Shown one piece after another: positions 4,761 through 41,458 of a DNA stretch of 41,458 bases. The stretch spans positions 1 to 41,458 of the forward strand of contig JANXYU010000022.1 of assembly GCA_025355855.1 (NCBI GenBank). Reading direction: 5' to 3'. The translations under genes and the position numbers were made by a program. The notes under the pieces were generated by a model. It saw nothing but the letters and a program-made list of their open reading frames with translations, was not told where the DNA came from and did not search any database. The DNA is from Actinomycetota bacterium (GTDB taxonomy: Bacteria > Actinomycetota > JAHEXW01). Each line of letters starts with the position of its first letter. The first letter of the stretch is position 1.

Positions 4761-7299
<2,539 letters not shown>

Positions 7300-14458: not shown

Positions 14459-14476
14459 ACCAGGTCTTACCCTGGT
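14459..14476. other. Short hairpin upstream of the DipZ-like gene
   Basis: ACCAGG and CCTGGT are separated by six bases. It may mark the end of the decayed permease transcript. The rest of the spacer to 14545 shows nothing else. Confidence 0.3.
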
Positions 14477-14545
14477 ATCTTGCTTGTGCGCGAGGCGCTA
14501 GTCTGTTAGAAGTCTAGTGCTATGGTTAACGGGGAGGAAGATTAA

Positions 14546-15520: not shown

Positions 15521-15590
15521 AGCGGCGAAAGGTAACGTTCCCTGTGCTACGCTAGTACTACTGTTAAAGAAGCCAAGGGAGAACCTGCGG

Positions 15591-15980: not shown

Positions 15981-16000
15981 CCGTTAAATACCCCAAGCCG

Positions 16001-17028: not shown

Positions 17029-17050
17029 CAAAAGATGAAAGGATCCTATT

Positions 17051-18131: not shown

Positions 18132-18233
18132 TTCTCTCCTTATATATTGGCGCCTATTCGCATCATAGCCTGCGGACGCACGTATCGGCAAACGCATGGG
18201 TCGCCAAAACGCTCGATACGGTATCATATTTAT

Positions 18234-19325
18234 ATGAAGCGAAGAAAACGCAATCGTAAGGGCGGTGCGAGGGTGCCTTTTTGGGCTCGCATCGTCCTTG
18301 TTATCCTCATACTGTTATTGTTCGGGGCCGCTGGCTTTGCCGGTTTTAGCCGGCCGGAAAGCTGCAATCTTTGCCATGTCATGCAATCTAGGGTTGATTC
18401 ATGGCGTCTCGATATCCACGCCAAAAATAACATTACTTGTCTTGATTGTCATGCGGACCGTGGATTTTACGGTGAAACAATCGCTCACGTGAGCGGTATC
18501 GGCTACCTTTTTAAGATCGGTGAGAAGACCGCGTTAGAATCAAAGGTTCCCAATAGCCGGTGTCTGGTGTGCCACTTTCCGCCCGGCAAAAGGGACAAGG
18601 ACGCCACCGCCCGCCTGCATTTCGCAGACTACCTGGACAACGGAGCGACCTGCGGCGATTGCCATATTGCTTTGGCGCATACGTCTAAGGGCGCCCGCGT
18701 CGACACGTCCAGGAAGAATCGCATCTGTGGTGGCTGTCACCCAGCCAACATGAACGAGATAGGCTTGGCGCAAGATCGGCATAAAGCCGCCTGCGAAGAT
18801 TGCCACAAGAATAGCGCCCGCCACGTGTTGTCGCCCCATCGAGACAATGTACCGTCGCCGGGTATGAGCGCGGAAGTTTGTTTGGAATGTCACAAGCCCA
18901 CCGACGGGACCCGATCAATGTGGGAGATGAGTAAACACGGGAATGTTAAACTCTCCTCCGATCTTAAAAAGAAACTCGTTGGCATCGGCGTCGTGAACCC
19001 GCCGGATGTGGTTACGTGCTCGGTATGTCACAACCCGCACACAGCCAAACCCAGGCTGGCGGGCGGGGAAATCTGTCTAACGTGTCACAAAACGAGTGAT
19101 ATGTATGCCAATGCCGGTCAGATAATGCCCGGTTGGCCGGCGTCGAGTTTTCACAATCGACACGCGGTCAACAAAATCACTTGTATCCAATGCCATATCG
19201 ACGTTTTGCCGGTCGCCAACAAAGGGTCTACGCAACACGGGTTTGACGTGACTACGACCCGTTGCCTTTTCTGCCATCCCGGACTGAACATCTCCGAACT
19301 CGCGCCCTCTATTATCCGGCGCTAG
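18234..19325 (+). CDS. Membrane-anchored 11-haem cytochrome c
   Basis: Eleven CxxCH haem-attachment motifs are present (CNLCH, CLDCH, CLVCH, CGDCH, CGGCH, CEDCH, CLECH, CSVCH, CLTCH, CIQCH, CLFCH) in 363 residues. A basic N-terminus and one hydrophobic helix (about residues 18-40) anchor it to the membrane with the haem part outside, as in NapC/NirT/NrfH-type quinol dehydrogenases. The first motif lies just after the helix, as in that family, but eleven haems is many more than their four. It should pass electrons from membrane quinol toward an external acceptor or partner reductase not encoded nearby. No ribosome site precedes the ATG. The neighbours (LysE, lipoprotein) do not explain it. Confidence 0.92.
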   Translation: MKRRKRNRKGGARVPFWARIVLVILILLLFGAAGFAGFSRPESCNLCHVMQSRVDSWRLDIHAKNNITCLDCHADRGFYGETIAHVSGIGYLFKIGEKTALESKVPNSRCLVCHFPPGKRDKDATARLHFADYLDNGATCGDCHIALAHTSKGARVDTSRKNRICGGCHPANMNEIGLAQDRHKAACEDCHKNSARHVLSPHRDNVPSPGMSAEVCLECHKPTDGTRSMWEMSKHGNVKLSSDLKKKLVGIGVVNPPDVVTCSVCHNPHTAKPRLAGGEICLTCHKTSDMYANAGQIMPGWPASSFHNRHAVNKITCIQCHIDVLPVANKGSTQHGFDVTTTRCLFCHPGLNISELAPSIIRR

Positions 19326-19328
19326 ATT

Positions 19329-19961
19329 ATGGCCATGTGGGTCTTTGCCAAAGCTATTGTTCTGGGGTTCGCCATAGCGGCTCCGCTCGGCCCGGTAAAC
19401 ATCCTCGTTATGCAGAGAACGCTTTCATCCGGACGAAAAATCGGTTGGCTCTCAGGCGCAGGCGCAGCTGTGGCCGATGGATTGTATGCTGCCGCCGCCG
19501 TGTCCGGCGTTAGTCTGGTGGCGGGTTTCTTAGCCGACAATCAGGTTTGGTTGCAGCTGGCTGGCGGAATTATCTTAATCTTATTGGGGACGCGCGTCGT
19601 GCTGGCGCATGTTTCTACGACCGCAGCCGAGCCGCCAGCCGGGCGCGGCCACGTATCCGCGTTTGCTTCGATGTTTCTCTTCAATCTTTTCAGCCCGGTC
19701 ACGATTGCGACCTATGCCGGGGCGATTGCCGGAATGGGAGCCGTTTGGCAAACAACCGGCGGCATTCTACAACCGGCGTTGATTGTCATGGGGGTCACGT
19801 GCGGTTCGCTATTGTGGGTCACTCTTTGGATAGTCGGCGCGCACAAGCTGAAAGGGATTCTCAGTGAGCGTTGGCTGCGCGGGGTTAATCTGATCGTTGG
19901 CGTGGCGTTGGGCGGGTTGGGGGCAGTGGCTCTAGTTCATAGTCTAGCGGCCGCGTTTTAG
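19329..19961 (+). CDS. LysE/RhtB-family exporter
   Basis: This 210-residue membrane protein has about six helices. The N-terminal AIAAPLGPVNILVMQRTL is the LysE-family signature, and FLFNLFSPVTIATYAG is the matching motif in the fourth helix. Members export amino acids or related small molecules. The ATG begins three bases after the cytochrome stop, so the two are co-transcribed, which is an unusual pairing. Its stop codon overlaps the stop codon of the convergent EamA gene. Confidence 0.87.
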   Translation: MAMWVFAKAIVLGFAIAAPLGPVNILVMQRTLSSGRKIGWLSGAGAAVADGLYAAAAVSGVSLVAGFLADNQVWLQLAGGIILILLGTRVVLAHVSTTAAEPPAGRGHVSAFASMFLFNLFSPVTIATYAGAIAGMGAVWQTTGGILQPALIVMGVTCGSLLWVTLWIVGAHKLKGILSERWLRGVNLIVGVALGGLGAVALVHSLAAAF

Positions 19962-20851
19962 GTCTCCAGGCGCCCCACAGCGCCTTCGCGGGCGCGGCGC
20001 GGACCTAACTCTACAAGGTACATAGCAGCCAACACCAGTGCGCCGCCCAGCACCGTCCGTATCCCTAGGTGCTCCCCGCCCAGCCAGACGGCGAATAGTC
20101 CCGCGAATACCGGTTCCATCGTCATCACGATCGCGGCTCGCGTCGGAGAGATTATCGCTTGCGCCCAGGTTTGAATAACGAAGGCAAAAGCGGTCGCGAA
20201 AACAGCGGTAACCAGGATAGCCGTCCAGGCCGCGGTGTCTGGCGGCAACATAATGCCTCCGGGGAGCGCGGCAGCGCCGCAGACCAATGTGACTACACCC
20301 AACTGCACGACTGCGAGGGCGTAGGGGTTGCGTCCGGCCGACCATTCACCCAGAGCAACTATGTGTACCGCGTAGATTAAGGCGCACAAGAGTGTCAGCA
20401 ATTCGCCGCCACCGATTGAGAAACCGCGCAGTGATATTATCGCCAAACCGAGCGTCGCGACGCCTACGCCAGCCCAGGCGGCTCGTCCGACTGGACGGCG
20501 CAAAAACAACCCCGCAATAATGGGCGTGAAGACGACGAACATGCCAGTTATGAAACCAGAGACGGCCGCCGAGGTATGGGCCAGGCCGAATGTCTGCGCG
20601 ACGTAACCCGCTCCCAAGAGGAGCCCTAGGACGGCGCCGCGTTGCCAGTCTGCCATTGATAGTTTCTTGAGGACAAGCGGGCGGATCATAATCATAAGCG
20701 TTGTCGCTAAAGCGAAGCGGACGGCGAGGAAATCCATGACGGGCATTCGGGATATCGCGTCCTTGACCATTACGAACGTCATACCCCAGGCCGCGGTCAC
20801 TAGAACGAGTGAGGCTATGGCAATAAATTGTTTGTCTGGTTTAAGCCGCAA
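19958..20851 (-). CDS. EamA/DMT-family transporter
   Basis: This 297-residue protein has ten predicted helices arranged as two EamA repeats. The first starts with LVLVTAAWGMTFVMVKDAI and the second with ALIYAVHIVALGEW. The repeat-end signatures AVSGFITGMFVVFTPII and RAAIVMTMEPVFAGLFA are clear. DMT transporters move metabolites or drugs, usually out of the cell; the substrate cannot be told. The gene is a single unit convergent with lysE and divergent from the amino-acid importer. Confidence 0.9.
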   Translation of the reverse strand: MRLKPDKQFIAIASLVLVTAAWGMTFVMVKDAISRMPVMDFLAVRFALATTLMIMIRPLVLKKLSMADWQRGAVLGLLLGAGYVAQTFGLAHTSAAVSGFITGMFVVFTPIIAGLFLRRPVGRAAWAGVGVATLGLAIISLRGFSIGGGELLTLLCALIYAVHIVALGEWSAGRNPYALAVVQLGVVTLVCGAAALPGGIMLPPDTAAWTAILVTAVFATAFAFVIQTWAQAIISPTRAAIVMTMEPVFAGLFAVWLGGEHLGIRTVLGGALVLAAMYLVELGPRRAREGAVGRLET

Positions 20852-21018
20852 CTGCCCTCAGTCCTCAATATTGCGATCTCTTTATAATCCGACCCTACGC
20901 GAACTCGTTAATTATAGACCAGACCCGCCGTCTAAGATGAGATTGACTTATAGCCCTAGTCATTGGACAATATAGCCATTGTTTTTATCCGCGTTTCGAA
21001 AACAACAGGGGGTAGCTG

Positions 21019-21831
21019 ATGGTGGTAAAAAAGGGTTTGGTCACGGCTGTTGCGGTGGCGGTAGTGATGCTAGCGGTTCTACTAGTTGCCGGATGTGCAA
21101 CGACCACAACCACGACGACTACGAAAGGGATTGCGGGGATCACAACGATCAAAGCAGGCGAGCTGCAAATTGGCAGCGATACGTCTTTCCCGCCGTTCGA
21201 AACGCTTGAAGGTAATAAGGTCACAGGGTTTGACGTGGATCTAATGACCGCGATCGGCAAGAAAATGGGCTATAAGGTCGTTTTCGTGACGGCCAATTTC
21301 GATGGCTTGATTCCTTCGTTGAAGTCGAAGAAATTTGATGGTGTCGCCACCGCGATGACCATCACCGCCGATCGGAAGAAAGAGATCGCGTTTTCCGACC
21401 CATATATTGACTCCGACCAGTCGTTGACGGTGAAGGCCAACTCGGGAATCAAGAGTACCAAAGACCTGACCGGAAAAGCTATTGGTGCTCAGACGGGCAC
21501 CACAGGCGAGAAATGGGCGCAGGAAAACTTGATGTCAATCGCGAAAGACAAAGCCATCAAGTCTTACCCGACGGCGACCGAGGCCTTTACAGCCCTGGAA
21601 GCCGGGCAAATAGACGCAATTATTAACGACTACCCGGTCAGCGCGTTTATCGTTAAAGATAAGCCCGAGCTCGCGTTGGTTGAGAAGATTAAAACGAACG
21701 AGAAGTACGGCTTCGCGTTTCGCAAAGAAGACACAAAATTGGTTTCTGAGGTTAACAAGACGTTAAAAACCTTAAAGAGCAATGGCGAGTACGACAAGAT
21801 TTTCGAAAAATGGTTCGGGAAGACGAAATAG
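21019..21831 (+). CDS. Polar amino-acid ABC transporter, substrate-binding lipoprotein
   Basis: This is a family-3 solute-binding protein of 270 residues. The signal peptide ends in the lipobox LLVAGC, so it is a membrane-tethered lipoprotein, as expected without an outer membrane. It is followed by an unusual run of eight threonines as linker. The binding domain shows LQIGSDTSFPPFE, GFDVDLMTAIGKKMG, IPSLKSKKFDGVATAMTIT (ligand-binding Thr/Arg region) and GQIDAIINDYPV. The binding of glutamine, glutamate, arginine or similar is expected. AGGGGGT precedes the ATG. The permease and ATPase genes follow. Confidence 0.95.
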   Translation: MVVKKGLVTAVAVAVVMLAVLLVAGCATTTTTTTTKGIAGITTIKAGELQIGSDTSFPPFETLEGNKVTGFDVDLMTAIGKKMGYKVVFVTANFDGLIPSLKSKKFDGVATAMTITADRKKEIAFSDPYIDSDQSLTVKANSGIKSTKDLTGKAIGAQTGTTGEKWAQENLMSIAKDKAIKSYPTATEAFTALEAGQIDAIINDYPVSAFIVKDKPELALVEKIKTNEKYGFAFRKEDTKLVSEVNKTLKTLKSNGEYDKIFEKWFGKTK

Positions 21832-21852
21832 TCTAGACCAAGATAGCAAATA

Positions 21853-21891
21853 CAGGAGGGCTCGCGCCACAGAACGGCGCTAGCCCTCCTG
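21853..21891 (+). terminator. Stem-loop between binding-protein and permease genes
   Basis: CAGGAGGGCT pairs with AGCCCTCCTG and an inner GCGCC pairs with GGCGC. No T-run follows. Such intercistronic hairpins in binding-protein operons usually stabilise the upstream message or lower read-through, so that the binding protein is made in excess. The stem also hides a GGAGG, which could prevent false initiation. Confidence 0.6.
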
Positions 21892-21913
21892 CTACGAAAA
21901 GGAATAAGCGCGC

Positions 21914-22636
21914 TTGTCATTCTTAACTTCCATATCGAACTGGCTGGACAGTATCCCGGTAATTCATCAGTTCGCCTCACCTAAGATTCTGGCCAGCGTT
22001 TTCCCCTTTCTGTTGGAAGGCGCCAAGCTAACAATCCTGTTTGCTGTTCTAGGTGAGTTGTTTGGAATCCCTTTAGGCTTGTTAGCTGCGGTCTTCAAAC
22101 TATCGAAACTTAAAATCCTAAGGGCGCTCGCCACCGTTTACGTCGACTTTTTTCGCGGCACGCCGCTTCTTGTCCAACTCTATATCGGGCTGTTCGCTTT
22201 GCCGATAGCGTTTCCGGTGATTCAAAAGATTCCGGACTTCACCTTCTATGGTGGGGTCGCGGTTCTCGCCATTAACAGTGGCGCTTATGTCGCGGAAATA
22301 TTCAGGGCAGGTATAGAGTCGATTCACAAAGGCCAGATGGAGGCGGCCCGCAGTCTCGGCTTCTCTTATCTTAAAGCTATGTGGTATGTCATAATTCCGC
22401 AGACATTCCGCCGCGTTCTGCCACCGTTGACCAACGAGTTCATCGCCCTGCTGAAGGATACCGCGTTGCTGAGCGCCTTAGCCATTACGGAGCTGGCAAT
22501 GAAGGCGCGCTATCTGTCTTCCTGGAAAGCCAATGTCAGCCCATTCATGGGTGCCGCGCTGATTTACCTAGCCATGACGATCCCTCTGACCAGGCTGGTC
22601 GCGTACATGGAAAAGAGGTTGGCTATCAGTGATTGA
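21914..22636 (+). CDS. Polar amino-acid ABC transporter, permease
   Basis: This 240-residue permease of the HisMQ/GlnP family has about five helices. The conserved EAA loop that contacts the ATPase is present: [20 protein letters not shown] then IPQ. The early [13 protein letters not shown] motif is typical. The best start is TTG 21914, ten bases after AAGGAAT; no ATG gives full length. Only one permease gene is present, so a homodimer is expected. Its end overlaps the ATPase start by eight bases. Confidence 0.92.
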
Positions 22637-23357
22637 GCTAGTCGACGTTCACAAGTACTTCGGTCATAGCGAGGTCTTAAAAGGTATCAATCTTAAGGTT
22701 GAACAGGGTGAGGTAATTGTAGTCATCGGCCCGTCCGGTTCTGGCAAATCGACGATGTTGCGCTGCATAAACAAGTTGGAAGACGTCACTAAAGGACACA
22801 TCTACATCGACGGCCAAGACATCACCGATCCCAAAAACGACATCAACGCTTTGAGGCAAAAGGTTGGCATGGTCTTTCAATCATTCAACCTGTTTCCCCA
22901 TTTGACGGCCCTTCAAAATGTCACAATCGCTCCTATACGGGTGCAGAAGAAAGATCGCCGGGACTCGGAACAAAAGGGCCGTGACATGCTGGCTCGAGTC
23001 GGGCTGACCGGCAAGGAAGACTTTTTCCCCTCTAAACTGAGCGGAGGCCAGCAGCAGCGAGTCGCCATAGCGCGCGCGCTGGCGATGGAGCCTGAAGTAA
23101 TGTTATTCGACGAGGTTACCAGCGCCCTTGACCCCGAGCTCGTCAAAGAGGTTTTAGACGTCATGAAGAATCTGGCGCTGGGCGGTATGACAATGGTCTG
23201 CGTAACCCATGAGATGGGCTTCGGCCGAGAGGTCGGAACCCGGGCGATCTTCATGGATGAGGGCGTTATCATGGAAGAAAATACGCCTGCGGAATTATTC
23301 GCCAACCCGCGAAATAAGCGCACGCAAGCTTTTTTGGGAAAAGTCCTGGCACAGTAG
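22629..23357 (+). CDS. Polar amino-acid ABC transporter, ATPase
   Basis: This 242-residue GlnQ/HisP-type subunit has Walker [14 protein letters not shown], signature [15 protein letters not shown], Walker [15 protein letters not shown] and the switch His in CVTHEMGFG. The proline usually following DE in Walker B is Val here, a variation seen in this family. The GTG start overlaps the permease stop by eight bases. With the upstream lipoprotein and permease it completes an ATP-driven amino-acid importer. Confidence 0.95.
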
Positions 23358-23390
23358 TAACCTTTGTCATTTGCGTCTGATAAAACTCAC

Positions 23391-23434
23391 GTTCATCTAC
23401 TCTTCACATTTCTGCTACGACCTGTTCACATGAC
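23391..23434 (+). promoter_or_regulatory. Four 11-bp phased units resembling a PHO box
   Basis: Consecutive 11-mers begin GTTCATC, CTTCACA, TGCTACG and GTTCACA. Three of the four carry [G/C]TTCA at the same place, in an 11-bp period. Direct 11-bp repeats with GTTCAC-like half sites are the binding pattern of PhoP/PhoB-family response regulators in actinobacteria and others. The block ends about 50 bases before an ABC permease start and just upstream of AT-rich sequence TCATATAAATA, a possible -10 zone. The regulator identity is inferred. Confidence 0.45.
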
Positions 23435-23484
23435 ATTGCTATGGTGGTCATATAAATATATTGCTGTTTAGACAAGGAGAAACT

Positions 23485-24876
23485 ATGGGTTCGCTAAGCC
23501 GCGGCGGGAAAAACGCCTTTCGTAACGTCGTTAGGACAATATCTATAACCATGATTGTCGGCCTCAGTATTGGGCTGGCGTTGGTAATGGTTCTTTCCCT
23601 TAAGGCGGTGCAAAGCAGGATCGACAGCGTAAAAAGCCAGATCGGCAACAACATCACGGTCTCTCCGGCCGGCGCCCGCGGTTTCGAGGGCGGCGGAGAA
23701 CCGCTCACGCAAACGGAAATGAAGGCCGTGGCGACCGCCGCGCATGTTGTCAAAACCACATATACCTTGTCTGACCGTGTTACAACGGGCGACACGACAA
23801 ACCTGACCGCGTCAATAGATTTGGGAACCCTGGGGCGACGGCAGCGCAACTTCAATAACAACAATACCGATCAGACGGGCCCGCCTCCGGGAGCGGCGGA
23901 ACGGCAGTCGGGAGGGAGCGGTGGAACAACCACCCGGACATTTACTATGCCGGTAATGATTACCGCGACTAACAATTTAGCCAGCACCTCGGTCGCCGGC
24001 GGCAGCAAAATGACTATAACCGCGGGGACTTTACCGTCCGGCGGGAGCAGCGCTGACGTTGCCGTTGTAGGCAAGGCTTTAGCGATAAAAAACAACTTAA
24101 AGGTTGGGTCGACCTTCACCTTGTACACCAAAACGATAAAAGTCGCAGCGATATTTGACGCGGGAAATGCTTTCGCCAACGGAGGGCTGCTGATGCCGCT
24201 CGCTACGCTGCAGACGCTCTCAGCTCGGCCCAGTGAGATTTCGGCAGCGACTGTTCAGGTCGACTCCATCACAAATGTGGACGCGGTGGCTAAAACGGCG
24301 ACCGCGAAATTGGGCAGCAAGGCCGATGTTGTCACCCCAACAGATACGTCAAGTTCCGCCATCACGCCTTTGGAGAACATAAAGACTATCGCCACGTATA
24401 GTTTGATCGGCTCCTTGGTGGCCGGCGCGGTTATTATTCTGCTGACGATGCTGATGATAGTGCGCGAACGTCGGCGGGAGATCGGCGTCCTAAAGGCGAT
24501 CGGATCATCGAACGTATCTATTGTGACGCAGTTCATAACCGAATCGACGGTGCTTACCTTGTTGGGTAGCGCCTTCGGCGCGATTTTGGGCATATTGCTC
24601 AGTAATCCGATCCTAAAAGTCATGGTTTCCAATAGCCAGTCGACAACCGGTCAGGCATTAAGGGGTCCAGGCGGCGGCGGTTTTGGGGCCATGCGCGCCG
24701 CGTTTTCCGGCGGACCGGGGATCAGGACGGCGCTGCAAAACATTCAAACCAGTGTCGGACTCGATTTATTGCTGTACGGACTTCTGGCCGCGATAATCAT
24801 CGCGATTATCGGCAGCGCCATACCTGCCTGGATGAGTGCCAGGATACGCCCGGCCGAAGCTATGAGGAGTGAATAA
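23485..24876 (+). CDS. MacB/FtsX-type ABC permease
   Basis: This 463-residue membrane protein has an N-terminal helix (TISITMIVGLSIGLALVMVL), a large extracellular MacB-like domain of about 270 residues with a Gly/Pro-rich loop, and three C-terminal helices with the FtsX signature (MIVRERRREIGVLKAIGSSN). These permeases work mechanically on extracytoplasmic substrates rather than as channels. I begin at ATG 23485 after AAGGAG. The ATPase and a small anchored protein follow with no gaps, forming a three-gene unit behind the PHO-box-like repeats. Glycine-rich low-complexity segments near residues 125-145 and 390-410 are unusual. Confidence 0.9.
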   Translation: MGSLSRGGKNAFRNVVRTISITMIVGLSIGLALVMVLSLKAVQSRIDSVKSQIGNNITVSPAGARGFEGGGEPLTQTEMKAVATAAHVVKTTYTLSDRVTTGDTTNLTASIDLGTLGRRQRNFNNNNTDQTGPPPGAAERQSGGSGGTTTRTFTMPVMITATNNLASTSVAGGSKMTITAGTLPSGGSSADVAVVGKALAIKNNLKVGSTFTLYTKTIKVAAIFDAGNAFANGGLLMPLATLQTLSARPSEISAATVQVDSITNVDAVAKTATAKLGSKADVVTPTDTSSSAITPLENIKTIATYSLIGSLVAGAVIILLTMLMIVRERRREIGVLKAIGSSNVSIVTQFITESTVLTLLGSAFGAILGILLSNPILKVMVSNSQSTTGQALRGPGGGGFGAMRAAFSGGPGIRTALQNIQTSVGLDLLLYGLLAAIIIAIIGSAIPAWMSARIRPAEAMRSE

Positions 24877-24877
24877 C

Positions 24878-25600
24878 ATGATAAAAGTCACCGACCTTAA
24901 GAGGTACTTCAAAACCCGCGACAATACTGTTAAAGCTGTCGATGGGGTTGATCTGACTCTAGACGAGGGCATACTGGCTTCGATAATCGGGACGAGCGGC
25001 AGCGGTAAAAGCACGCTGCTGGCGCTGCTGGGCGCCCTCGACAAACCTTCGGAAGGCACCATCGAGATTGACGGACAAGATGTTACGAAGATGGGCGGCC
25101 GGCAGCTGACCGCCTATCGTCGGGATAAGGTCGGCTTTGTGTTTCAGGCCTATAACTTGATACCGAACCTATCCGCGATTCAAAATGTCATGATTCCGAT
25201 GGAATTTGCCGGCGTGAAACGGGGCGAAAGACGCGCTCGAGCAGAGAAGCTGTTAGAACAGGTCGGTTTGGATAAGGAAAAGCAGAATCGCAAGCCGGGC
25301 CGCTTATCCGGGGGTGAGCAACAGCGGGTCGCGATCGCCCGCGCGCTGGCCAATAGGCCAAAATTAATCTTAGCTGACGAACCGACAGGCAATTTGGACA
25401 CGGAGACAGGCAAAGTAATCGTTAATCTGCTGCACGACCTGGCAAAAACGGAGAAGGCGACGATCTTGGCCGTGACGCACGACGCTGAGATTGCTAAACA
25501 AACGGACGAAACGTTCAAGATTCAGGACGGCCGGATCGTCGGCAACAATAAGAATCATAACGGCAAAAGCCTAAGTGAAGAGGCGAAAACTGATGGATAA
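24878..25600 (+). CDS. MacB/LolD-type ABC ATPase
   Basis: This 240-residue ATPase has Walker [16 protein letters not shown], signature [15 protein letters not shown], Walker [17 protein letters not shown] and switch His (AVTHDAEIA). The DEPTGNLD form is diagnostic of the MacB/LolD/FtsE group that partners FtsX-like permeases. ATG 24878, eight bases after GGAG, is preferred over the GTG nine bases earlier. The end overlaps the next gene by eight bases. Confidence 0.94.
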
Positions 25601-26081
25601 GGTAACTAGAAGCATCCTGATCATAGTGGGAACTGTGGCCCTGGCCGGAGGTATCGCTGCCAGCTCTTTCTTTGGGGGCGCGGCTTGGCAGCGTGGTCAA
25701 GACACAACGACAATCAGCGCCAATACAGCTTACGGGCAAAATTCCACAAATGGCAACAGCGGCCCAGGTGCTGGGAGCGGAAATGGACGGCCAGGACCGG
25801 GTGGCGCCGGCAGGCAAGGTTTCCGGCCCGGGGGTATGCCCGGGGGTACCGCGGGTACGATCCAGTCAATTTCCGGCAATACCATTACAGTCAAACTAGA
25901 CAACGGAACCGTGGAAACGGTGACTATGACCGCCGACACGATTATTGCTAAAAGTCAAACCGCGGCGTCAGCGGATTTGGCCGCCGGCCAGACCGTTCAA
26001 GTCGCGGGATTACCGGCAGACAACGGCGCAAGCGATGGTTCAGGCGGCATTACAGCCAGGCAGATTACGATCAAGCAATAG
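25593..26081 (+). CDS. Small membrane-anchored protein with Gly/Pro-rich linker (DUF5666-like)
   Basis: This 162-residue protein has an N-terminal helix (about residues 6-28), then a 55-residue Gly/Asn/Pro-rich linker (GPGAGSGNGRPGPGGAGR), then a compact beta domain. That domain contains AGTIQSISGNTITVKLDNGT and VTMTADTIIAKSQT, resembling the DUF5666 barrel. It is co-translated with the MacB-like ATPase (eight-base overlap) and is the last gene of that unit, so it may be an extracytoplasmic accessory in place of a MacA adaptor. ATG 25593 is preferred to GTG 25575. The functional assignment is open. Confidence 0.7.
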   Translation: MDKVTRSILIIVGTVALAGGIAASSFFGGAAWQRGQDTTTISANTAYGQNSTNGNSGPGAGSGNGRPGPGGAGRQGFRPGGMPGGTAGTIQSISGNTITVKLDNGTVETVTMTADTIIAKSQTAASADLAAGQTVQVAGLPADNGASDGSGGITARQITIKQ

Positions 26082-26083
26082 CA

Positions 26084-26776
26084 TCAAACAGGGGAGAGGA
26101 CGTCCTGAATGAGCTTGCCGTCCTGGATCTCCAGGATGCGATCGGTTTGTTGTGCGATGCGTCGATCGTGCGTGACTATTAAAAAGGCTGTACCCAGGTC
26201 CTTGTTGATTTGGCGAAAAAGCCGAAAGACTTGGTCGGTGTTGGTGGTGTCCAAGTTGCCTGTGGGTTCATCCGCGAGAACTAGCGCCGGTTTGTTCATC
26301 AGCGCCCGGCCTATTGCGACCCTTTGTTTCTGACCTCCGCTCAGTTCAGTCGCGCTCTTGTTCTCCAGTCCCGACAAACCCAACAGTTCTAGAACTTCGT
26401 GCCCATATGAGAGCGCGTCCGCCTTGTTATCCCCGCTGATCAACGTGGGCATCAAGACGTTCTCCAGGACGCTGAATTCCGGTAACAGGTAGTGGAATTG
26501 AAAAACGAAGCCGAGCCTACGATTTCGCAATCCGGCGCGGGCCCGCTTGCCAAGATCATTGGTCTTCAGGTCGTCGAGTCTGACTTCACCCGAGGTCGGT
26601 GTATCCAGAAGCCCCAGCATGTTCAGCAGGGTTGACTTGCCTGACCCGGATTGGCCGACCAGAGAGACAAATTCTCCGTGGTCAAGGCTCACAGTGACAT
26701 CGTTTAGGGCCACTGTGGGAGCGAGTGAGCCGTAGACTTTCGTTATGCCGTTGGCTTGCAGCAATCTATCCGCCAC
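26084..26776 (-). CDS. LolD/MacB-type ABC ATPase of the B12-sensor operon
   Basis: This 230-residue ATPase has Walker [16 protein letters not shown], signature LSGGQKQRVAIGRAL, Walker [17 protein letters not shown] and switch His (IVTHDRRIA). It uses a GTG start that overlaps the permease end by 11 bases. It is the last gene of a four-gene minus-strand operon and converges with the DUF5666-like gene, with three bases between them. It energises the FtsX/LolE-like permease encoded just before it. Confidence 0.94.
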   Translation of the reverse strand: MADRLLQANGITKVYGSLAPTVALNDVTVSLDHGEFVSLVGQSGSGKSTLLNMLGLLDTPTSGEVRLDDLKTNDLGKRARAGLRNRRLGFVFQFHYLLPEFSVLENVLMPTLISGDNKADALSYGHEVLELLGLSGLENKSATELSGGQKQRVAIGRALMNKPALVLADEPTGNLDTTNTDQVFRLFRQINKDLGTAFLIVTHDRRIAQQTDRILEIQDGKLIQDVLSPV

Positions 26777-27914
26777 TTTGAATCACCTCGATAGGGTCAA
26801 GGCGCGCGGTTCGGCGCGACGGCAGAATAGCTGATAGCATCGCGACGGCCAAACCGATGCCAACAGAGACAATCACGAAGGTAGTTTGCGGCGTAATCGG
26901 GAAGGAACCAGGTTTTGCCCCTGCTGTAACGCTAAAAATGGCGATAAGACCTAAGCCAAGAAGAAGACCGCCCAATGAGCCCAGAAAGCCTAGAAACAGC
27001 CCCTGCCAGAGGAAGATGGTTCCGGAGCGGCCGTCGGTCATGCCCAGCGCTTTTAGGATGCCGATTTGGCGCGTCTTTTGGATAGCCGAGATCGAAAGGG
27101 TTGACGCGATGCCGAGCGCAACTGCGATGAGCACAAAAAACTGAATCATAAACGTCGAGCTGGATTGGGCTTGCAAGCCTGAGAGCAGGCTTTTCTGCTC
27201 AATCTGCCAGTCGGTAATCGTGATATCTGGAAATGCGCCGGCAAGGTTTTTGGCGATCGCGGTTGATTGGAACACTTGAGACAGTTGAATCTCGACCGCG
27301 GAATACCGGTTGACGGACGCCCCCAAAGCGGCGCGGCCAAACCCCGTTCCGGCGAAAGCCACGGTCTCGTTAGCTTGTTTGTTTCCCAGGTCAACAATAC
27401 TGCTTACCCTAAGTTCCTTAACAGCGCGTGAGGCTAAGGTCAATTTGATCATATCGCCGGGGCGGACATTTTGTCCTGAGGCGAAGTCTGAACCAACAAT
27501 GATCTCATTGTCCCCAAGCGAGTAGTCTCCGCCCTTAAGCTTGCTCTTTAGTTTGTAAATGCTGTCAAGCTTCGTAGCGTCGGCGCATTTTATGCTGAGC
27601 GGCGCGCTTTGGCTGCCTTTTACGAAAATCGCTGATACGGTTCGCTGCGGCACAACCGCTTTGACGACCGCGTTTTTCTTCAGCTTGATTCGTAATGCCT
27701 GGTTGTAATCAATAAATTCGCCTTTTGCTTTCGCTGTCAGAGTCAAATGCGGGCTAGAGCCAAGCGTCTGATCGATCAGAAATGATTGCAGGCTGGCGAT
27801 CAGTGAGCCCACAAAGATCTGGACGGCAATGCCGACCGCAATGCCGGCGACGATCAGGACGGTTTGAATCGGACTCTTGAGCAGAAATCTGACAGCTATT
27901 CTCAAACTAAGCAT
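26766..27914 (-). CDS. LolC/E-FtsX-type ABC permease
   Basis: This 382-residue permease has the four-helix FtsX layout. It has an N-terminal helix (PIQTVLIVAGIAVGIAVQIF), an extracellular domain of about 210 residues, and three C-terminal helices with ISAIQKTRQIGILKALGMTD, the FtsX-family signature. In LolCDE these proteins extract lipoproteins, but in hosts without an outer membrane homologues export peptides or act on the envelope. The start overlaps the stop of the cobalamin-binding gene as TAATG. Transport substrate is unknown; the sensor-like genes upstream may tell when it is made. Confidence 0.9.
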   Translation of the reverse strand: MLSLRIAVRFLLKSPIQTVLIVAGIAVGIAVQIFVGSLIASLQSFLIDQTLGSSPHLTLTAKAKGEFIDYNQALRIKLKKNAVVKAVVPQRTVSAIFVKGSQSAPLSIKCADATKLDSIYKLKSKLKGGDYSLGDNEIIVGSDFASGQNVRPGDMIKLTLASRAVKELRVSSIVDLGNKQANETVAFAGTGFGRAALGASVNRYSAVEIQLSQVFQSTAIAKNLAGAFPDITITDWQIEQKSLLSGLQAQSSSTFMIQFFVLIAVALGIASTLSISAIQKTRQIGILKALGMTDGRSGTIFLWQGLFLGFLGSLGGLLLGLGLIAIFSVTAGAKPGSFPITPQTTFVIVSVGIGLAVAMLSAILPSRRTARLDPIEVIQSGG

Positions 27915-28549
27915 TAGCGGCCTTCTTGAAGCCGAAACACGTTCGGGTCGAGTATTTCCTCATCCGTCCAACCGTCATGGCCCGCGCTGAAAGCCGGGCC
28001 TGTGACTTGAAGCTTAACGGTTGGAAATTTCCGGCGAAGCTCGGTCGTAAGGTCGCGCAGACGTAATCGGTGATAGTGGGTGGCGGCGCTTAAGACAACT
28101 AAGTTTGCGTCCAGGACGGAAGCGGCGCTGAAAATTTCGTCAGCCGGCGTGTTGGCTCCTAAAAAGTAGGCGGTCCAACCGTTCAATCGAAACAAATCCG
28201 CCAACATTCTCAGGCCCAGATCGTGCTGCTCTTCTGTCGGACAGGCTAGGAGTACAACCTGCCCATTGGCGAAAGAGGCCAGGCTCGCGACAGTCAGCGT
28301 CAACGCCTCGATGACTGTCCTAACCGTTGAGCTAATCAGATGTTCCTGCCAGATCGCCGTTTGGCCGGCCTGCCAAGAATCGCCGGTTCCAAGAAGAATC
28401 GGACTTAGATAATCAAGATAAAGTGATGTGATGGTGACAGCATTGGACTTAAGGGCTTTGTCGACCAAACCTATGGCGCCCGGAGCGTCAGCGGCTTGAA
28501 TATGCTGGGTCAGTTTGGCTTGGAAAGCCGAGTCCGCCACGGCCATCAT
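27914..28549 (-). CDS. Cobalamin-binding protein with CarH-like photoreceptor signature, no DNA-binding domain
   Basis: This 211-residue protein has the two-part B12 module, a helical cap (about 1-90) and a Rossmann-like cobalamin domain (about 95-205). The cap holds Trp59 followed after nine residues by Glu69-His70, the Wx9EH signature that marks adenosylcobalamin light receptors of the CarH/LitR type. The B12 motif appears as Glu107-x-His109-x-x-Gly112, with Glu for the usual Asp, keeping the lower-ligand His and Gly. No MerR helix precedes it. It overlaps the upstream sensor-like gene (ATGA) and the downstream permease (TAATG). Sensing of light or cobalamin coupled to the membrane proteins is inferred; methyl-transfer carrier use is the main alternative. 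Confidence 0.85.
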   Translation of the reverse strand: MMAVADSAFQAKLTQHIQAADAPGAIGLVDKALKSNAVTITSLYLDYLSPILLGTGDSWQAGQTAIWQEHLISSTVRTVIEALTLTVASLASFANGQVVLLACPTEEQHDLGLRMLADLFRLNGWTAYFLGANTPADEIFSAASVLDANLVVLSAATHYHRLRLRDLTTELRRKFPTVKLQVTGPAFSAGHDGWTDEEILDPNVFRLQEGR

Positions 28550-29124
28550 TTGGAGCGTTCGATTTGAAGCGCTATCATTTGCCCTGTCAGAAATACTAAA
28601 AGCGAGGCAAGTAGGGTAATCAGCCAGCCGATAGCGACCATATGGCCTAAGTTATCGATCCGCTTCTCAACCTCTCGCAAAGACCGCCCCACGACAACAA
28701 CGCCGCTGTGCTGACCATTGTAATAAACGGCAACGATGGCTAGCCTGATACCTGTGCGCGGTTGCCAGGTTACGCGGTCTTGGCCATGGCTGACAGCATA
28801 GTTAAGGACACCGGCCGGCAGATTCGGCACGTCTCCGTCGAGGCGAGCGTTTGAGGCCGCCACTTTCTGCGGACCGCTGTAAAGCGTGATGAAAGTCGCC
28901 AGGCTGGTGCCGATGTCGACTGTCTCTTTTGGCACCACGCTGGTCGGAGTGTCCCCCGACGTTAGGCGAGCCGCCGCGTCCTCGGCTAACTGGATCTGCG
29001 GATCATTGGCGCTAATACGCAGATTCTGTTGGGTAACCAAGTAGATGAGACCGGCCAGTCCAGACGCAAATACAGCCACAGGCAGCCAAATAATCACCAA
29101 AGACAAGAGCATTTTCTTTAACAT
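28546..29124 (-). CDS. Two-helix membrane protein with extracellular sensor-like domain
   Basis: This 192-residue protein has a hydrophobic helix at residues 6-30 and another at about 165-187, enclosing an extracellular domain of about 130 residues. The domain end (AIVAVYYNGQHSGVVVVGRS) looks like a Cache/PAS-like sensory strand pair as found in receptor kinases, but no kinase, HAMP or signalling output follows. It is first in the minus-strand operon. Its ATG at 29124 lies only about seven bases from a TATAAT box, so the message may be leaderless; ATG 29112 is an alternative. The Cache comparison is by pattern only. Confidence 0.7.
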   Translation of the reverse strand: MLKKMLLSLVIIWLPVAVFASGLAGLIYLVTQQNLRISANDPQIQLAEDAAARLTSGDTPTSVVPKETVDIGTSLATFITLYSGPQKVAASNARLDGDVPNLPAGVLNYAVSHGQDRVTWQPRTGIRLAIVAVYYNGQHSGVVVVGRSLREVEKRIDNLGHMVAIGWLITLLASLLVFLTGQMIALQIERSK

Positions 29125-29130
29125 ACCTGG

Positions 29131-29176
29131 ATTATACCTTAGACGCTTGACTTGTAATAGTTAAGTAGCTAAACTA
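29131..29176. promoter_or_regulatory. Divergent promoters and MarR-type operator
   Basis: On the plus strand TTGACT (29147-29152) and TAAACT (29170-29175) are 17 bases apart, serving marR. On the minus strand ATTACA (29153-29158) and TATAAT (29131-29136) are 16 apart, serving the sensor operon. TAGTT-N9-AACTA (29158-29176) is an imperfect palindrome with seven of nine pairs, overlapping both promoters. This is a typical place for MarR to bind, possibly controlling both directions. Confidence 0.55.
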
Positions 29177-29214
29177 ATAAGTAACTGGATAACAGGACTC
29201 AGCCTGGAGGCCTT

Positions 29215-29673
29215 ATGGTTCAAGAACGCGACAAAATCATCGACGAGATATTCAACGATTTTCGCGTGATTGGCAGAACGGCCAAGCGCGGCATGAAACC
29301 GTCGGCCGGAATCGGACGTCCATCTCCGGCGCAAATAGAGATGATCAATATCATATCAGGGCGCGGCTCGGTGACGGTAAAGGAGATCGCCGAGACCATG
29401 CGTGTCTCGGGCAGTGCCGTCACACAATTCGCGGATCCATTGGTTGAAGCGGGACTGATTGAGCGCCATCATGACGCCCGCGACCGGAGAATCGTCAACA
29501 TCAAAATGTCTCCCGCAGGCCGCAGAGAATTGTCCGCGTTAGAGACCCACGGACGAGAACATCTGGCGATGATGTTTGAGACGCTGTCAAATGAAGAACT
29601 GGAAACAATGCGCGATTTGCACCGTAAGGTTATCGATAACATTGTGAATATTAATGGACAGGGGAATTCATGA
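29215..29673 (+). CDS. MarR-family transcriptional regulator
   Basis: This 152-residue regulator has the MarR winged helix at about residues 35-115. It shows [20 protein letters not shown] as helix-turn-helix and [18 protein letters not shown] as the wing with the conserved DxRDRR. Terminal helices form the dimer. GGAGG precedes the ATG. It overlaps the efflux gene by four bases (ATGA), the usual design in which MarR represses its own drug exporter until a ligand releases it. Confidence 0.94.
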
Positions 29674-31334
29674 AAGAGACAAGAACCAAGATTTTGATTA
29701 TGTGCGGCGTCTTGCTGGCGATGCTTTTGAGCGCGCTGGATTCAACGATCGTCGCGACCGCCATGCCGAAGATCGTCGGCGACCTTGGCGGGCTGTCTTT
29801 GCTTAGCTGGGTTTTCACTGCGTATATGTTGACGAGCACCATATCGGTGCCGCTCTACGGCAAACTAAGCGACCTCTATGGCCGCAAGATGTTCTTCGTT
29901 AGCGGAATCGTAATCTTTATGATTGGTTCGGCCTTAGCCGGTGCGGCCCAGTCGATGTGGTGGTTGATCCTGTCACGCGGCCTCCAGGGCGTCGGCGGCG
30001 GCGCCATTATGGTGAACGCCATGGCCGTTATCGGCGATATCTTCCCGCCCGCTGAACGCGGTAAATGGCAAGGCGCCATGGGAGCCGTTTTCGGTTTGGC
30101 CAGCGTTGTCGGCCCCCTGGTAGGCGGTTGGATAACGGACAGCTTTAGCTGGCGTTGGATCTTCTATATAAACATACCGCTCGGTGTGCTGGCGGCCTTC
30201 GTTTTGGTCGCCGTTTTGCCCAAAATAGACTCTGATTTCAAGCAGAAGAGGATTGACATCGCCGGAGGCACGACCTTGGCGATGACCTTGGGCGCGCTTT
30301 TGGTAGCAATGGAATGGAGCAGTGGTCAGTATGGTTGGGCTTCGTGGGAGACAATCGGATTGCTGGCCGGATCGGCCTTGAGTCTGCTGGCTTTCATATT
30401 CGTCGAGTCGAGGGCAAAAGAACCGATCCTACCGCTTATGTTGTTCAAGAAACGAATCTTCAATGTATCTGTCTTTATCACATTCATTAGCGGGTTGGCG
30501 ATGTTCGGCGGCATTATGTATATCCCGCTTTTTGCCCAGAGCGTGACTGGGATCTCGGCGACGAATTCCGGTTTAATATTAACGCCTATGATGCTGGCGC
30601 TGGTATTCGCCAGCGCTATCAACGGGCAGATTATCTCTCGAACAGGACGATACAAGATATCCGGCATTATCGGCTCCGCGGTCACGGCGGGAGGACTATA
30701 TATGATGTCCTTAATGACCGGCACAACTACCAGCAATACGCTGATGCTCAATATGATCGTCGTTGGTATCGGTATCGGTATCACGTTGCCCATCTTCGTG
30801 GTGGCCGTTCAGAGCGCTTTCGAGCACAAGATGCTGGGCGTCGTTACCGCCTCAGTGCAGCTTTTCCGCAGCGTTGGCGGCACCATCGGCGTGGCTATAT
30901 TCGGAACGATCCTCAACAACGGCCTGGTCGACAGGCTGGGCGGCGTGGCCGGGGACAAAACTCTGGCGCCGCTATTTAAGGTCAGCCCGGCTTTAGTCGG
31001 CATGGTTACCGACGTGAACAAGGTGCAAGCTCTGTTGTCGACCGCGGGCCAAGCCGAAATGCAGAGCCTAGCGGCCAAACTGCCTGCCCAATTTAAGGCG
31101 CCGATCGTCGCTGCTCTGAACCATCTGACGGAGCTTCTAAAGACAGCCTTCGCTGGCGCCGCGGCGCATGTTTTTTTGATTGCGTCGGTGGTCGCGACCT
31201 CTGCGGTCGTTGCGGCTTTTTTCCTGCCGGAGATCGAGCTGAGGAAAACAAACGAGTCGACGCTGTTAAGCGCCAGTCGAACGCTGGACGCGGAGTTTGG
31301 GATGGCCGAGCCGAAGGATGAGCCGACACTCTAG
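29670..31334 (+). CDS. DHA2 (EmrB/QacA-type) drug:proton antiporter
   Basis: This 554-residue major facilitator has 14 predicted helices. Family motifs are [13 protein letters not shown] in helix 1, the loop motif [12 protein letters not shown] and the antiporter motif C region [13 protein letters not shown]. After helix 13 there is an extra extracellular segment of about 100 residues before the last helix, common in EmrB-like proteins. It exports hydrophobic toxic compounds using the proton gradient. Translation is coupled to marR through ATGA. Confidence 0.94.
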
Positions 31335-31434
31335 CTCCGTCATTGCTATACTGGCAATATACAGCCAGACACATCTGGAATCACAAGAGCTTGCGCGTTA
31401 CCCTAAGTTGGCATTCGAATTCTAGGAGGCTGTT

Positions 31435-32373
31435 ATGAAACCCCGAACGATCGCCATAAGTATTGTCGTGTTAGTCCTTGTTGTTCTGGCGTTGTTTGTT
31501 GGCAGCCGCCTTTCAGGACCGAAGCAAACCAGCTCGTCCGCTGCGACTACTGCGACTGCTACCTTGGGAACAATCCACACTACGCTAAACGCCACCGGGA
31601 CGATAATTAGCGCCAACCAGGTCGATCTCAATTTCAATACGCCCGGTAAACTAACCGAACTCGACGTCGCCGTGAATCAGGTTGTGGCCGATGGTCAACA
31701 GCTGGCGATTCTGGCACCGACAAGCGGCGCCGCTGATGTTGTCTTGACCTCTACGCTCGCCGGAACGGTCATCCACATCGGCGCGAAGGTCGGCGAACAA
31801 ATTGGCAGCACAACAGCGCAGTCAGGCAACGGGAGCGCGACGGGGTCCGGCAGTCCGGCAATCGCCACGACCGGCTTTTTGACAGTCGCTGACCTGAACA
31901 ATCTGCAAGTCAAGGTCGGCGTAGACCAAGCTGACATCGCTAAGCTCTCCATAAATCAAGCAGTCGCTATATCCTTGGACGCGATTCCGGACAAGACCTT
32001 TGCGGGCGCGGTCGTCTTTATCGACCCAATCCCCTTAAACAGCCAGAATGTAATTACCTACAACGCATACGTCAGCCTAACCGCACCAGATCCGCTTGTC
32101 AGGCTGGGGATGAGCGCGAACGCGTCAGTCGATCTCGGCAAGAAGGAAAACGTGCTTCTAGTACCCAACCTGGCCGTAAAGACTGTTAACGGACAGAAAG
32201 TTGTGACAAAGGTCGTGCGGGGAAAACAAACCGACGTCAACGTGACCGTCGGAGTGGCTGACGACAAAAACACCGAGATTAAGAGCGGCCTGAGCTCCGG
32301 GGACAAAGTTGTCGTGGGCGTTGTCACCGTTACGTCGAGCGCTAGGGGAGGCGGAGCCTTTGGCGGAGGATAA
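31435..32373 (+). CDS. MacA-like membrane-fusion/adaptor protein
   Basis: This 312-residue HlyD/MacA-family adaptor has an N-terminal membrane anchor (about 6-26), then a biotinyl-lipoyl-like domain (GTIISANQVDLNFNTPGKL, VNQVVADGQQLAIL) with only a short hairpin, and a beta-barrel domain (VAISLDAIPDKTFAGAVVFI). The lack of a long coiled-coil hairpin fits Gram-positive adaptors that need no outer-membrane channel. The ATG follows AGGAGG. It is the first of a MacA-MacB-MacB set of overlapping genes. The Ser/Thr/Ala-rich linker after the anchor is typical of exported proteins. Confidence 0.9.
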   Translation: MKPRTIAISIVVLVLVVLALFVGSRLSGPKQTSSSAATTATATLGTIHTTLNATGTIISANQVDLNFNTPGKLTELDVAVNQVVADGQQLAILAPTSGAADVVLTSTLAGTVIHIGAKVGEQIGSTTAQSGNGSATGSGSPAIATTGFLTVADLNNLQVKVGVDQADIAKLSINQAVAISLDAIPDKTFAGAVVFIDPIPLNSQNVITYNAYVSLTAPDPLVRLGMSANASVDLGKKENVLLVPNLAVKTVNGQKVVTKVVRGKQTDVNVTVGVADDKNTEIKSGLSSGDKVVVGVVTVTSSARGGGAFGGG

Positions 32374-35106: not shown

Positions 35107-37572
35107 ATGGTTCTGGAAGAATACCAGCGAAAACGCCATTTCGCCAAGACACCCGAGCCAACCGGGAAAACCCCCACGGGTCGGCCGGGAGGTCGTTTTG
35201 TTATACAGAAGCACGCCGCGTCGCGCCTGCACTACGATCTGCGTTTGGAGCACGCCGGTGTCTTAAAGAGTTGGGCCGTTCCTAAGGGGCCTTCACGTGA
35301 TCCCGAGCATAAACGTTTGGCAGTGATGGTCGAAGACCACCCCATCGATTACATTGATTTCGAAGGTGTGATTCCGGAAGGTGAATACGGAGCCGGGCAG
35401 GTTATCGTTTGGGACAAGGGAACATACAGCTGGGCCGGGCCGGAAAAGTCGGGCCCGCAACAAGCCGAAGCGTTCGCGGCCGGTCTTGCTAAAGGACATC
35501 TAAGCGTAGTTTTGGAAGGCGAGAAACTTACTGGCGAGTTTGCTCTGGTGCGGGTCGCGCGCGGGGGCCGGAACGCCTGGTTATTGATTAAAGCGCACGA
35601 TAGCGGCGCAGCGGAGAACGACGTTCTAGCCTTGGACAAATCGGTCGTTTCCGGCAAACGGATTGAAGAGATTGGCGGTCTGTCTCTATACGGAGCGCCA
35701 CAGGGGCCGCTCCCAGACCACCTGATTCCCATGATGGCAACGCTTGTCAGCCGTCCTTTCGATCGGAAAGGGTGGTTGTTCGAGGTTAAATACGACGGGT
35801 ATCGCGCCGTCGGCCAAGTGAACGAAAAAAAAGTCCGGCTGTATTCGCGCGCGGGCCATTCGCTTAACGACCGCTTTGCTCCTCTGGTTAAGCAACTGGA
35901 GGGATTGGGCCACAATGCGGTGGTTGACGGCGAGGTAGTAGTTCTAGACAGCGATGGCCGGCCTTCTTTTCAGCTACTCCAAGATTATCTGCGGGACGGA
36001 CGAGGGGAATTGGTTTATTATGTCTTCGACATCCTATGGCTCGACGGTCATGACCTGAAAGAGCTGCCCCTGCTAGACAGGAAAGCGATTCTGGCGCAGA
36101 TCTTGCCCAAGAATTCTCTTATTGCCTTCGCGGAGCATGTCGAGAGCTCCGGCCTCGCGTTTTTTAAAGCCGCGGCGAAGGCGGGGTTGGAGGGTGTTGT
36201 CGCCAAGGACGGTGCCAGCCATTACCGACCAGGGGAACGCGGCCACCGCTGGCTTAAGATCAAAGCTCGCCTTAGCCAGGAGTTTGTCATCGGGGGCTAC
36301 ACGGCGCCACAAGGCAGCCGAAAACACTTCGGTTCGCTGCTTGTCGGATTCTACCGCCGGGATGATTTTGTCTTTGCCGGCCACGTCGGTACGGGGTTCG
36401 ATGAGGCGATGTTGACCAATCTCTCGCGAGAGCTTGCCACGCGTGCAATCACGACGTGTCCTTTCGTCGCCGAGCCGGCGGTTAATGCCCCCGCGACTTG
36501 GGTTAAGCCTGAGTTGGTAGCGGAAGTCGAGTTCGCCGAATGGACACAGAATGGTCTGCTGAGGCAACCGTCCTACATGGGTCTACGCGATGACAAAAAC
36601 CCGCGGGACGTTGTCGCGGAGAATATCGCGCTCGGTTTTCAAGCAGCGGTATCGGATCCGGCAGAACCAACCGACGCGCCGACGCAAACAGTGAGGCGAA
36701 CCAATCCCGCCAAGCTATACTGGCCGGACGACGGTATTACCAAAGGCGATATGATTGACTACTACCGGGCGATGGCGCCGTATATTTTGCCGCATCTCGC
36801 CGGCTACCCGCAATCCCTGCATCGCTTTCCCAACGGCCTGGCGGATGTGGGCTTCTGGCAAAAGAACGCTGGGGAAGATACGCCTGGCTGGGTCGAAACC
36901 ATCGCCATCACGTCGGCGGAAGAGAGCAAGACCGTCAACTACATTCTATGCGGGGACGAACGCACCCTGCTGTACCTGGCCAACCTGGGCTGTATCGAGA
37001 TGAACCCGTGGTTGTCCCGGGTCGGCAGGCTTGATAACCCGGATTTCGCCGTCATCGATCTCGATCCCTTGGATGTTCCTTTCTCGGCTGTCTTGGAGAC
37101 GGCCTTGACGATTCATGAGGTCCTACACCAGGCGGATGTCAAACCATACATAAAAACGTCCGGAGCAACCGGGATGCACATCTTCTTGCCTCTCGGGGCG
37201 CGCTATTCTTACGATCAAGCTAGAGAGTTCGCCGAATTGATTTGTGTTTTGACGAACCGACGTCTGCCGGATATCACGAGTCTGGCGCGTGACCCGAAGG
37301 TCCGCGAGAAACGAGTCTACCTTGACTACCTGCAAAACCGGAAAGGCGCGACGGTGGCCGCGCCATATAGCCTACGGCCACGTCGGGGCGCGCCGGTGTC
37401 AATGCCGCTGCGCTGGTCTGAATTGAAGCAAGGACTGCGGCCAGAAGACTTTAATATACAGAACACGGTTGCGCGGGTGAAGAACAAGGGTGATTTATGG
37501 AAACCTTTGCTTGATCAGGCAATCGACATCAAGACGGCCTTGAGAAAGCTTAAGGCTTTGGTCGAGGGTTAG
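35107..37572 (+). CDS. ligD: Multifunctional DNA ligase D
   Basis: This 821-residue protein has three domains in the order phosphoesterase, ligase, polymerase. The PE domain (about 25-165) keeps His36, Asp44 (HYDLRLE) and His78 (VEDHP). The ATP-dependent ligase (about 205-510) has Lys228 in KYDGYR as the adenylated residue, plus DGEVVV, EGVVAKD and WLKIKA motifs. The primase-polymerase domain (about 530-815) has the acidic pair in VIDLDP and SGATGMHIF. All three activities should be intact for end cleaning, gap filling and sealing with Ku. This domain order is the one known from Pseudomonas, not the POL-PE-LIG order of mycobacteria. Confidence 0.97.
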   Translation: MVLEEYQRKRHFAKTPEPTGKTPTGRPGGRFVIQKHAASRLHYDLRLEHAGVLKSWAVPKGPSRDPEHKRLAVMVEDHPIDYIDFEGVIPEGEYGAGQVIVWDKGTYSWAGPEKSGPQQAEAFAAGLAKGHLSVVLEGEKLTGEFALVRVARGGRNAWLLIKAHDSGAAENDVLALDKSVVSGKRIEEIGGLSLYGAPQGPLPDHLIPMMATLVSRPFDRKGWLFEVKYDGYRAVGQVNEKKVRLYSRAGHSLNDRFAPLVKQLEGLGHNAVVDGEVVVLDSDGRPSFQLLQDYLRDGRGELVYYVFDILWLDGHDLKELPLLDRKAILAQILPKNSLIAFAEHVESSGLAFFKAAAKAGLEGVVAKDGASHYRPGERGHRWLKIKARLSQEFVIGGYTAPQGSRKHFGSLLVGFYRRDDFVFAGHVGTGFDEAMLTNLSRELATRAITTCPFVAEPAVNAPATWVKPELVAEVEFAEWTQNGLLRQPSYMGLRDDKNPRDVVAENIALGFQAAVSDPAEPTDAPTQTVRRTNPAKLYWPDDGITKGDMIDYYRAMAPYILPHLAGYPQSLHRFPNGLADVGFWQKNAGEDTPGWVETIAITSAEESKTVNYILCGDERTLLYLANLGCIEMNPWLSRVGRLDNPDFAVIDLDPLDVPFSAVLETALTIHEVLHQADVKPYIKTSGATGMHIFLPLGARYSYDQAREFAELICVLTNRRLPDITSLARDPKVREKRVYLDYLQNRKGATVAAPYSLRPRRGAPVSMPLRWSELKQGLRPEDFNIQNTVARVKNKGDLWKPLLDQAIDIKTALRKLKALVEG

Positions 37573-40766: not shown

Positions 40767-41195
40767 GTGGAAGAACAAGCTATCTTCTCCTTAGGGTGAT
40801 TCTGGGGCGTGGAGAGGTATTTCTCTTCACTGGCCGGGGTCACCGGCACGGCAGTCGGCTATACGGGAGGGACCAGCGTCAACCCGACTTATCACCGGCT
40901 GGACGGGCATACCGAATCCATCAAGATCACCTATGACCCGGCGACAATAACATATCAGGACCTCCTGCACCATTTCTGGGGGTTCCGCGATCATTCGGGA
41001 GTCTACATGACCCAGTACGAATCGGCGATTTTCACCACCAATGACGAACAAATGAAGCTGGCTCTGGAATCAAAGGAAGCGCAACCGGCGCACCGGTTCC
41101 GGCCCCTTCGTGTACGTATCGAACCGGCCGGACCTTTCTATCGGGCGGAGGAATACCATCAACAGTATTACGGCAAAATGAAAGCTCAAGTCTAG
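40767..41195 (+). CDS. msrA: Selenocysteine-containing peptide methionine sulfoxide reductase A
   Basis: MsrA reduces methionine-S-sulfoxide in proteins and free methionine. The normal start of the family is AIFxxGCFWGVE; here the frame reads AIFSLG, then TGA at 40797-40799, then FWGVERYF. The TGA exactly replaces the catalytic Cys and should be read as selenocysteine. Homology is continuous on both sides: AVGYTGGTSVNPTYH, GHTESIKITYDP, TQYESAIF and FYRAEEYHQQYY. GTG 40767 gives the family N-terminus, with GGGGG eight bases upstream. A SECIS-like hairpin follows the TGA. The 142-residue product has no cysteine at all, so no resolving Cys. A conventional call from 40809 lacks the active site. 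Confidence 0.9.
40797..40830 (+). promoter_or_regulatory. UGA codon and bacterial SECIS hairpin of msrA
   Basis: GTGGAGAG (40809-40816) pairs fully with CTCTTCAC (40823-40830), with one G-U pair. The pairing closes a six-base loop, GTATTT. The loop begins 17 bases after the TGA and its first base is G. A small loop with an early G, a stem of 4-16 pairs and a UGA-to-loop distance of about 16-37 bases are the known bacterial SECIS features that SelB recognises. The hairpin is also coding sequence. Confidence 0.8.
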
Positions 41196-41458
41196 ATGCG
41201 GCTGGCAAAATATCTGGCAAGTTGCGGCCGGGGCTCGCGCCGCGCTTGTGAGGATATCGTACGAGGCGGTACCGTCGCGGTCGACGGTGAGATTATCACC
41301 GACCCGGCCTTTAACGTTGAACCGGACAGAGACAAAGTGACTGTCAAAGGCCAGGACGCCGCGCCACGGGAGCTCGTCTACTACGCGCTGAACAAACCGG
41401 TCGGCTATACCTGCTCCCGCGAAGACAAACACGCGGCCCATCTGGTAACCGAGCTGGT
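41196..41458 (+). CDS. RluB/RsuA-family 23S or 16S rRNA pseudouridine synthase, N-terminal part
   Basis: The ATG directly follows the msrA stop (TAGATG) and the frame runs off the window. The first 60 residues are an S4 RNA-binding domain (MRLAKYLASCGRGSRRACED, GGTVAVDGEIITDPAFNV). The catalytic domain begins with YYALNKPVGYTCS, the usual KPxG motif of RsuA/RluB/RluE/RluF enzymes. The catalytic Asp lies beyond the window, so subfamily cannot be fixed. There is no separate ribosome site, so translation is probably coupled to msrA and would depend on ribosomes passing the UGA. Confidence 0.92.
   Translation, partial: MRLAKYLASCGRGSRRACEDIVRGGTVAVDGEIITDPAFNVEPDRDKVTVKGQDAAPRELVYYALNKPVGYTCSREDKHAAHLVTEL

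Follow-up and report, generated by a model that had tools for sequence, protein, structure and literature searches.

Does the in-frame TGA at the catalytic codon of the msrA gene near the end of the window (the whole stretch of DNA that was analysed, 41,458 nucleotides) specify selenocysteine (Sec), or is the gene broken or misread? MsrA, peptide-methionine (S)-S-oxide reductase, is an enzyme of protein repair. The locus consists of the following elements.

40767-41195, plus strand: msrA, 142 aa, start codon GTG at 40767, Sec as residue 11, no Cys
40797-40799, plus strand: UGA in frame at the catalytic position (G-U-FWG), interpreted as selenocysteine
40809-40830, plus strand: upper hairpin of the SECIS, whose stem pairs 40809-40816 with 40823-40830; the loop GUAUUU (40817-40822) begins with G
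40795-40844, plus strand: extended fold, lower stem 40795-40805/40834-40844, UGA included
41196-41458, plus strand: gene of an S4-domain protein (probably a pseudouridine synthase of the RsuA/RluB type), its ATG directly after the msrA TAG

The GTG start, the TGA and the TAG at 41193-41195 share one frame, and a purine-rich AAGGGGG is located ~9 nt upstream of the GTG. The DNA around the TGA reads TTA GGG TGA TTC TGG GGC. With TGA taken as Sec, the N-terminus becomes VEEQAIFSLG-U-FWGVERYF, and the frame contains no further stops. The Pfam family PF01625 has a single match in the whole genome to which the window belongs (C28:40776-41189, E 1e-37), which spans the TGA and contains no other. The window MsrA scores 137 bits with this model (cut-off 23.7) and 120 bits with TIGR00401 (cut-off 108.1). 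In an alignment of seven TGA-type MsrA, U11-F12-W13, Y42, E50 and EEYH 128-131 are invariant (U or C being counted alike in column 11); these active-site columns include the catalytic U/C-F-W and the Tyr and Glu of the substrate pocket. Apart from the Sec codon, there is no Cys in the 142 residues, which places the protein in the 1-Cys type, defined by the lack of a resolving Cys. The segment 40767-41195 is thus confirmed as an MsrA gene with TGA at the catalytic codon, as the preliminary description had claimed. The TAG-ATG junction with the S4-domain gene is also found in the sister genome, MAG nzgw113 (G001, JAHEXW010000014.1), the only genome of the same genus in our sample.

Elsewhere, the window encodes a haem peroxidase of catalase-peroxidase size (5134-7299, 721 aa), an oxidative-stress gene; a multihaem cytochrome c-type protein (17970-19325); a Fic-domain protein on the minus strand (3532-4692); and a three-domain DNA ligase D of non-homologous end joining (35107-37572), here in a small 1.34-Mb genome.

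The UGA is followed by a hairpin that had been described as having an 8-bp stem, a 6-base loop starting with G and a spacing of 17 bases from the UGA. It refolded exactly so, with an energy of -9.8 kcal/mol. The bSECIS model calls for a loop of 3-9 nt, a stem of 4-16 bp, a G in loop positions 1-2, a distance of 16-37 nt from the UGA and an MFE of -7.5 or lower (PMC13188914), and the window hairpin falls within every one of these limits. When 40790-40850 is folded, the larger structure reaches a total of -31.4 kcal/mol (z -5.6), a value equalled by none of 200 shuffles. Of 104 Cys-type MsrA genes judged by the same rule, 9.6% have a hairpin within the energy limit and 1.9% have one as stable as that of the window; a SECIS-type hairpin of that stability also appears in 1.9% of 5000 synonymous recodings of the window msrA. 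Thus, the hairpin exceeds chance. Sec forms as a group have lower hairpin energies than Cys forms (Mann-Whitney p 0.0003, for sequences that are related by descent). An RNAalifold consensus of four sequences displays little covariation (2 pairs) and was not counted as evidence.

Good SECIS-type hairpins are not universal among the seven TGA-type MsrA: they are found in L130 and L056 and are missing from L092 and L124. A TGA at the catalytic codon alone is therefore no general proof of Sec. The latter two, from a Planctomycetia MAG (L092:10022) and an Abditibacteriales MAG (L124:335), combine a catalytic TGA with a poor hairpin and could represent atypical SECIS elements, relics or errors. An MsrA gene of an Obscuribacterales (Melainabacteria) MAG (L146:5386) carries both the TGA and a strong SECIS-type hairpin; a 2006 survey found no Sec decoding among Cyanobacteria (PMC1794560).

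An ordinary Cys-MsrA turned into a pseudogene by a nonsense mutation of TGC or TGT to TGA would require a single-base change, and the absence of visible sel genes from the organism's own assembly would fit such an origin. The comparison with nzgw113 makes it very improbable. Its MsrA (87-88% protein identity) has the identical TGA codon and the same hairpin, and the part of the gene downstream of the TGA evolves under strong constraint (dN 0.072, dS 1.42, dN/dS ~0.05). Synonymous changes are suppressed over the hairpin, with two in 16 in codons 12-28 versus 53 in 103 elsewhere (Fisher p = 0.003), and the only change in the SECIS-bearing stretch after the TGA converts a stem U-A pair into U-G. 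The shared TGA, the low dN/dS and the suppressed synonymous change together rule out a decaying pseudogene, and they make an error at this codon very unlikely as well.

A sequencing or assembly error could be suspected because the source is MAG data, but the same codon stands in the independent nzgw113 MAG, and Actinomycetota genomes outside the genus likewise have an MsrA match with one TGA, which in two of them reads G-TGA-FWG. The chance of such an error is therefore close to negligible. Among 397 Actinomycetota genomes sampled, 296 carry MsrA, and at least six of these have one TGA in the match: the two sister genomes, G043 and G189, where the codon is read as G-TGA-FWG, and G250 and G306, which were counted by the single TGA inside the match. 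The earlier characterization of Sec-MsrA as rare is thus fair. Beyond Actinomycetota, TGA-type MsrA occurs in Planctomycetia, Abditibacteriales and Obscuribacterales. The Sec forms lie scattered over a tree of 111 MsrA (six changes), with at least two changes forced by well supported branches. The Sec-MsrA L130 groups with a Cys-MsrA of its own family (support 100/96), which means that there is no single clade of Sec forms. The pair formed by the window MsrA and its nzgw113 counterpart sits on a long branch (1.74), and its exact place in the tree is unsure.

Absence of selABCD and tRNA-Sec from the assembled genome had been named in the preliminary description as grounds for abandoning the Sec interpretation. 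In the organism's own assembly (G000; 1.34 Mb, 35 contigs, 91% complete), selA, selB and tRNA-Sec were sought and none was found above the cut-off. The apparent selB matches cover the GTPase part only (best 83 bits, cut-off 242), as expected of other translation GTPases, and the apparent tRNA-Sec matches are tRNA-Leu, Ser, Arg, Cys and others. Taken literally, the absence thus holds for these three genes, but it is best explained by a gap over the sel block. In nzgw113, selD, selA (608 bits) and selB (broken off by the contig end) form one block, at 93-97 kb of contig C13. In G002, a genome of the same order, selD, selA, selB and tRNA-Sec (anticodon UCA) stand in a row. SelD itself contains a UGA in both, within KSG-U-ASKLGP in nzgw113 (L054:7546-8595) and KAG-U-AAKIGP in G002 (L057:6390-7445).

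Orthologous DNA of the two sister genomes is ~76-84% identical and easy to find. Positions 40001-60000 of the nzgw113 contig C13 match positions 14007-32303 of our contig C23 end to end, and a 30-kb stretch of C13 that ends with the sel genes has no collinear match in our assembly. C23 is 34,575 bases long and ends ~2.3 kb beyond the last match. As the sel block is missing together with the surrounding 30 kb, and C23 stops near the last match, the block probably lies beyond the contig end. The simplest reading of the missing selA, selB and tRNA-Sec is therefore an assembly gap over the whole block, and sel genes missing from an incomplete MAG are by themselves no veto on a selenoprotein call.

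The organism might instead have truly lost selABCD, with its Sec genes left as recent relics. The lack of a collinear match to the sister's whole selD-selA-selB block would be expected in that case. The gap-like pattern around the block, the purifying selection on msrA and the retention of Sec UGAs in two further genes of the same assembly, both of formate-dehydrogenase type, leave such a loss with very little probability.

G000:C30:129568-131583: FdhA-type gene (L171), UGA at the Sec site, CARL-U-HSPTVAGL
G000:C20:11734-12501: FdhA-type gene (L175), UGA at the Sec site, QARI-U-HSSTVAGL

All the UGAs found occupy known Sec sites, which argues against reassignment or suppression of UGA across the genome (as Trp, Gly or Cys) in place of site-specific recoding. 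TGA terminates seven of the 34 main open reading frames of the window and so is no general sense codon, tRNA-Cys has its ordinary GCA anticodon, and the relatives possess SelA and SelB, with tRNA-Sec(UCA) in G002. Nothing but the absence of sel genes from the assembly speaks for reassignment, and its likelihood is minimal.

Taking all of this into account, the window MsrA is most likely a functional selenoprotein of the 1-Cys type (probability of roughly 0.94). The sequence itself, its homology, the SECIS-type structure, conservation, the Sec machinery of the two nearest relatives and the other UGA-Sec genes support the initial Sec-MsrA interpretation. Translation would begin at GTG 40767. The hairpin 40809-40830 would recruit SelB-GTP-Sec-tRNA(Sec) at UGA 40797, and the ribosome, having inserted Sec, would continue to the TAG at 41193. 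In the catalysis that we infer, the selenolate would attack methionine-S-sulfoxide; Met would be released, and the enzyme would retain a selenenic acid. As there is no resolving Cys, resetting would need an outside thiol, which could be thioredoxin, glutaredoxin or a small thiol and might act by way of a Sec-Sec dimer, as in the Clostridium oremlandii enzyme. A thioredoxin-reductase-like gene of nzgw113 lies in the stretch that is conserved in C23; at 301 bits it is below the TIGR01292 cut-off of 343 and gives only a hint at the reductant.

Standard annotation would either miss msrA or report a 128-aa fragment that lacks the active site. Sec-MsrA is an already established selenoprotein family (PMC13188914, PMC1794560), and what is new here is a member with a modest structural difference, from an uncultured lineage of actinobacteria (sister MAG nzgw113) that joins the known Sec-MsrA carriers. 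A short, Cys-free Sec-MsrA is convenient for asking how an MsrA that lacks a resolving Cys recycles and what selenium adds.

The Sec-MsrA of other Actinomycetota MAGs (G043/L056, G189/L055/L130) have TGA at the same GUFWG codon as the window MsrA, with an identity of only 40-42%. The MsrA of G002 (G002:C3:48220-48681), from the same order and a genome with a full sel operon, has Cys and not Sec at the catalytic codon. The best relatives in the Protein Data Bank are the structures of CoMsrA from C. oremlandii OhILAs (Clostridium/Alkaliphilus; PDB 4LWJ-4LWM, 4U66, 4W8C; E 7e-32), the organism that had been cited initially as a known Sec-MsrA carrier. CoMsrA is a Cys-free Sec enzyme of the 1-Cys type with 20-fold higher activity with Sec than with Cys; substrate causes it to dimerise, glutaredoxin resets it, and its C-terminal helical domain is essential for its active site (PMC4479559). 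The window MsrA shares with it the G-U-FWG active site, the catalytic Sec, the lack of Cys and the 1-Cys type. It differs in a divergent loop, FRDHSGVYMTQYES, and in ending at residue 142, without the helical domain (residues 145-209 of CoMsrA). We consider the odds about even that the Cys-free Sec-MsrA works without this domain, with dimerisation or the direct action of thioredoxin or a small thiol resolving the selenenic acid, and with a Cys-to-Sec change that may have been separate from that in clostridia.
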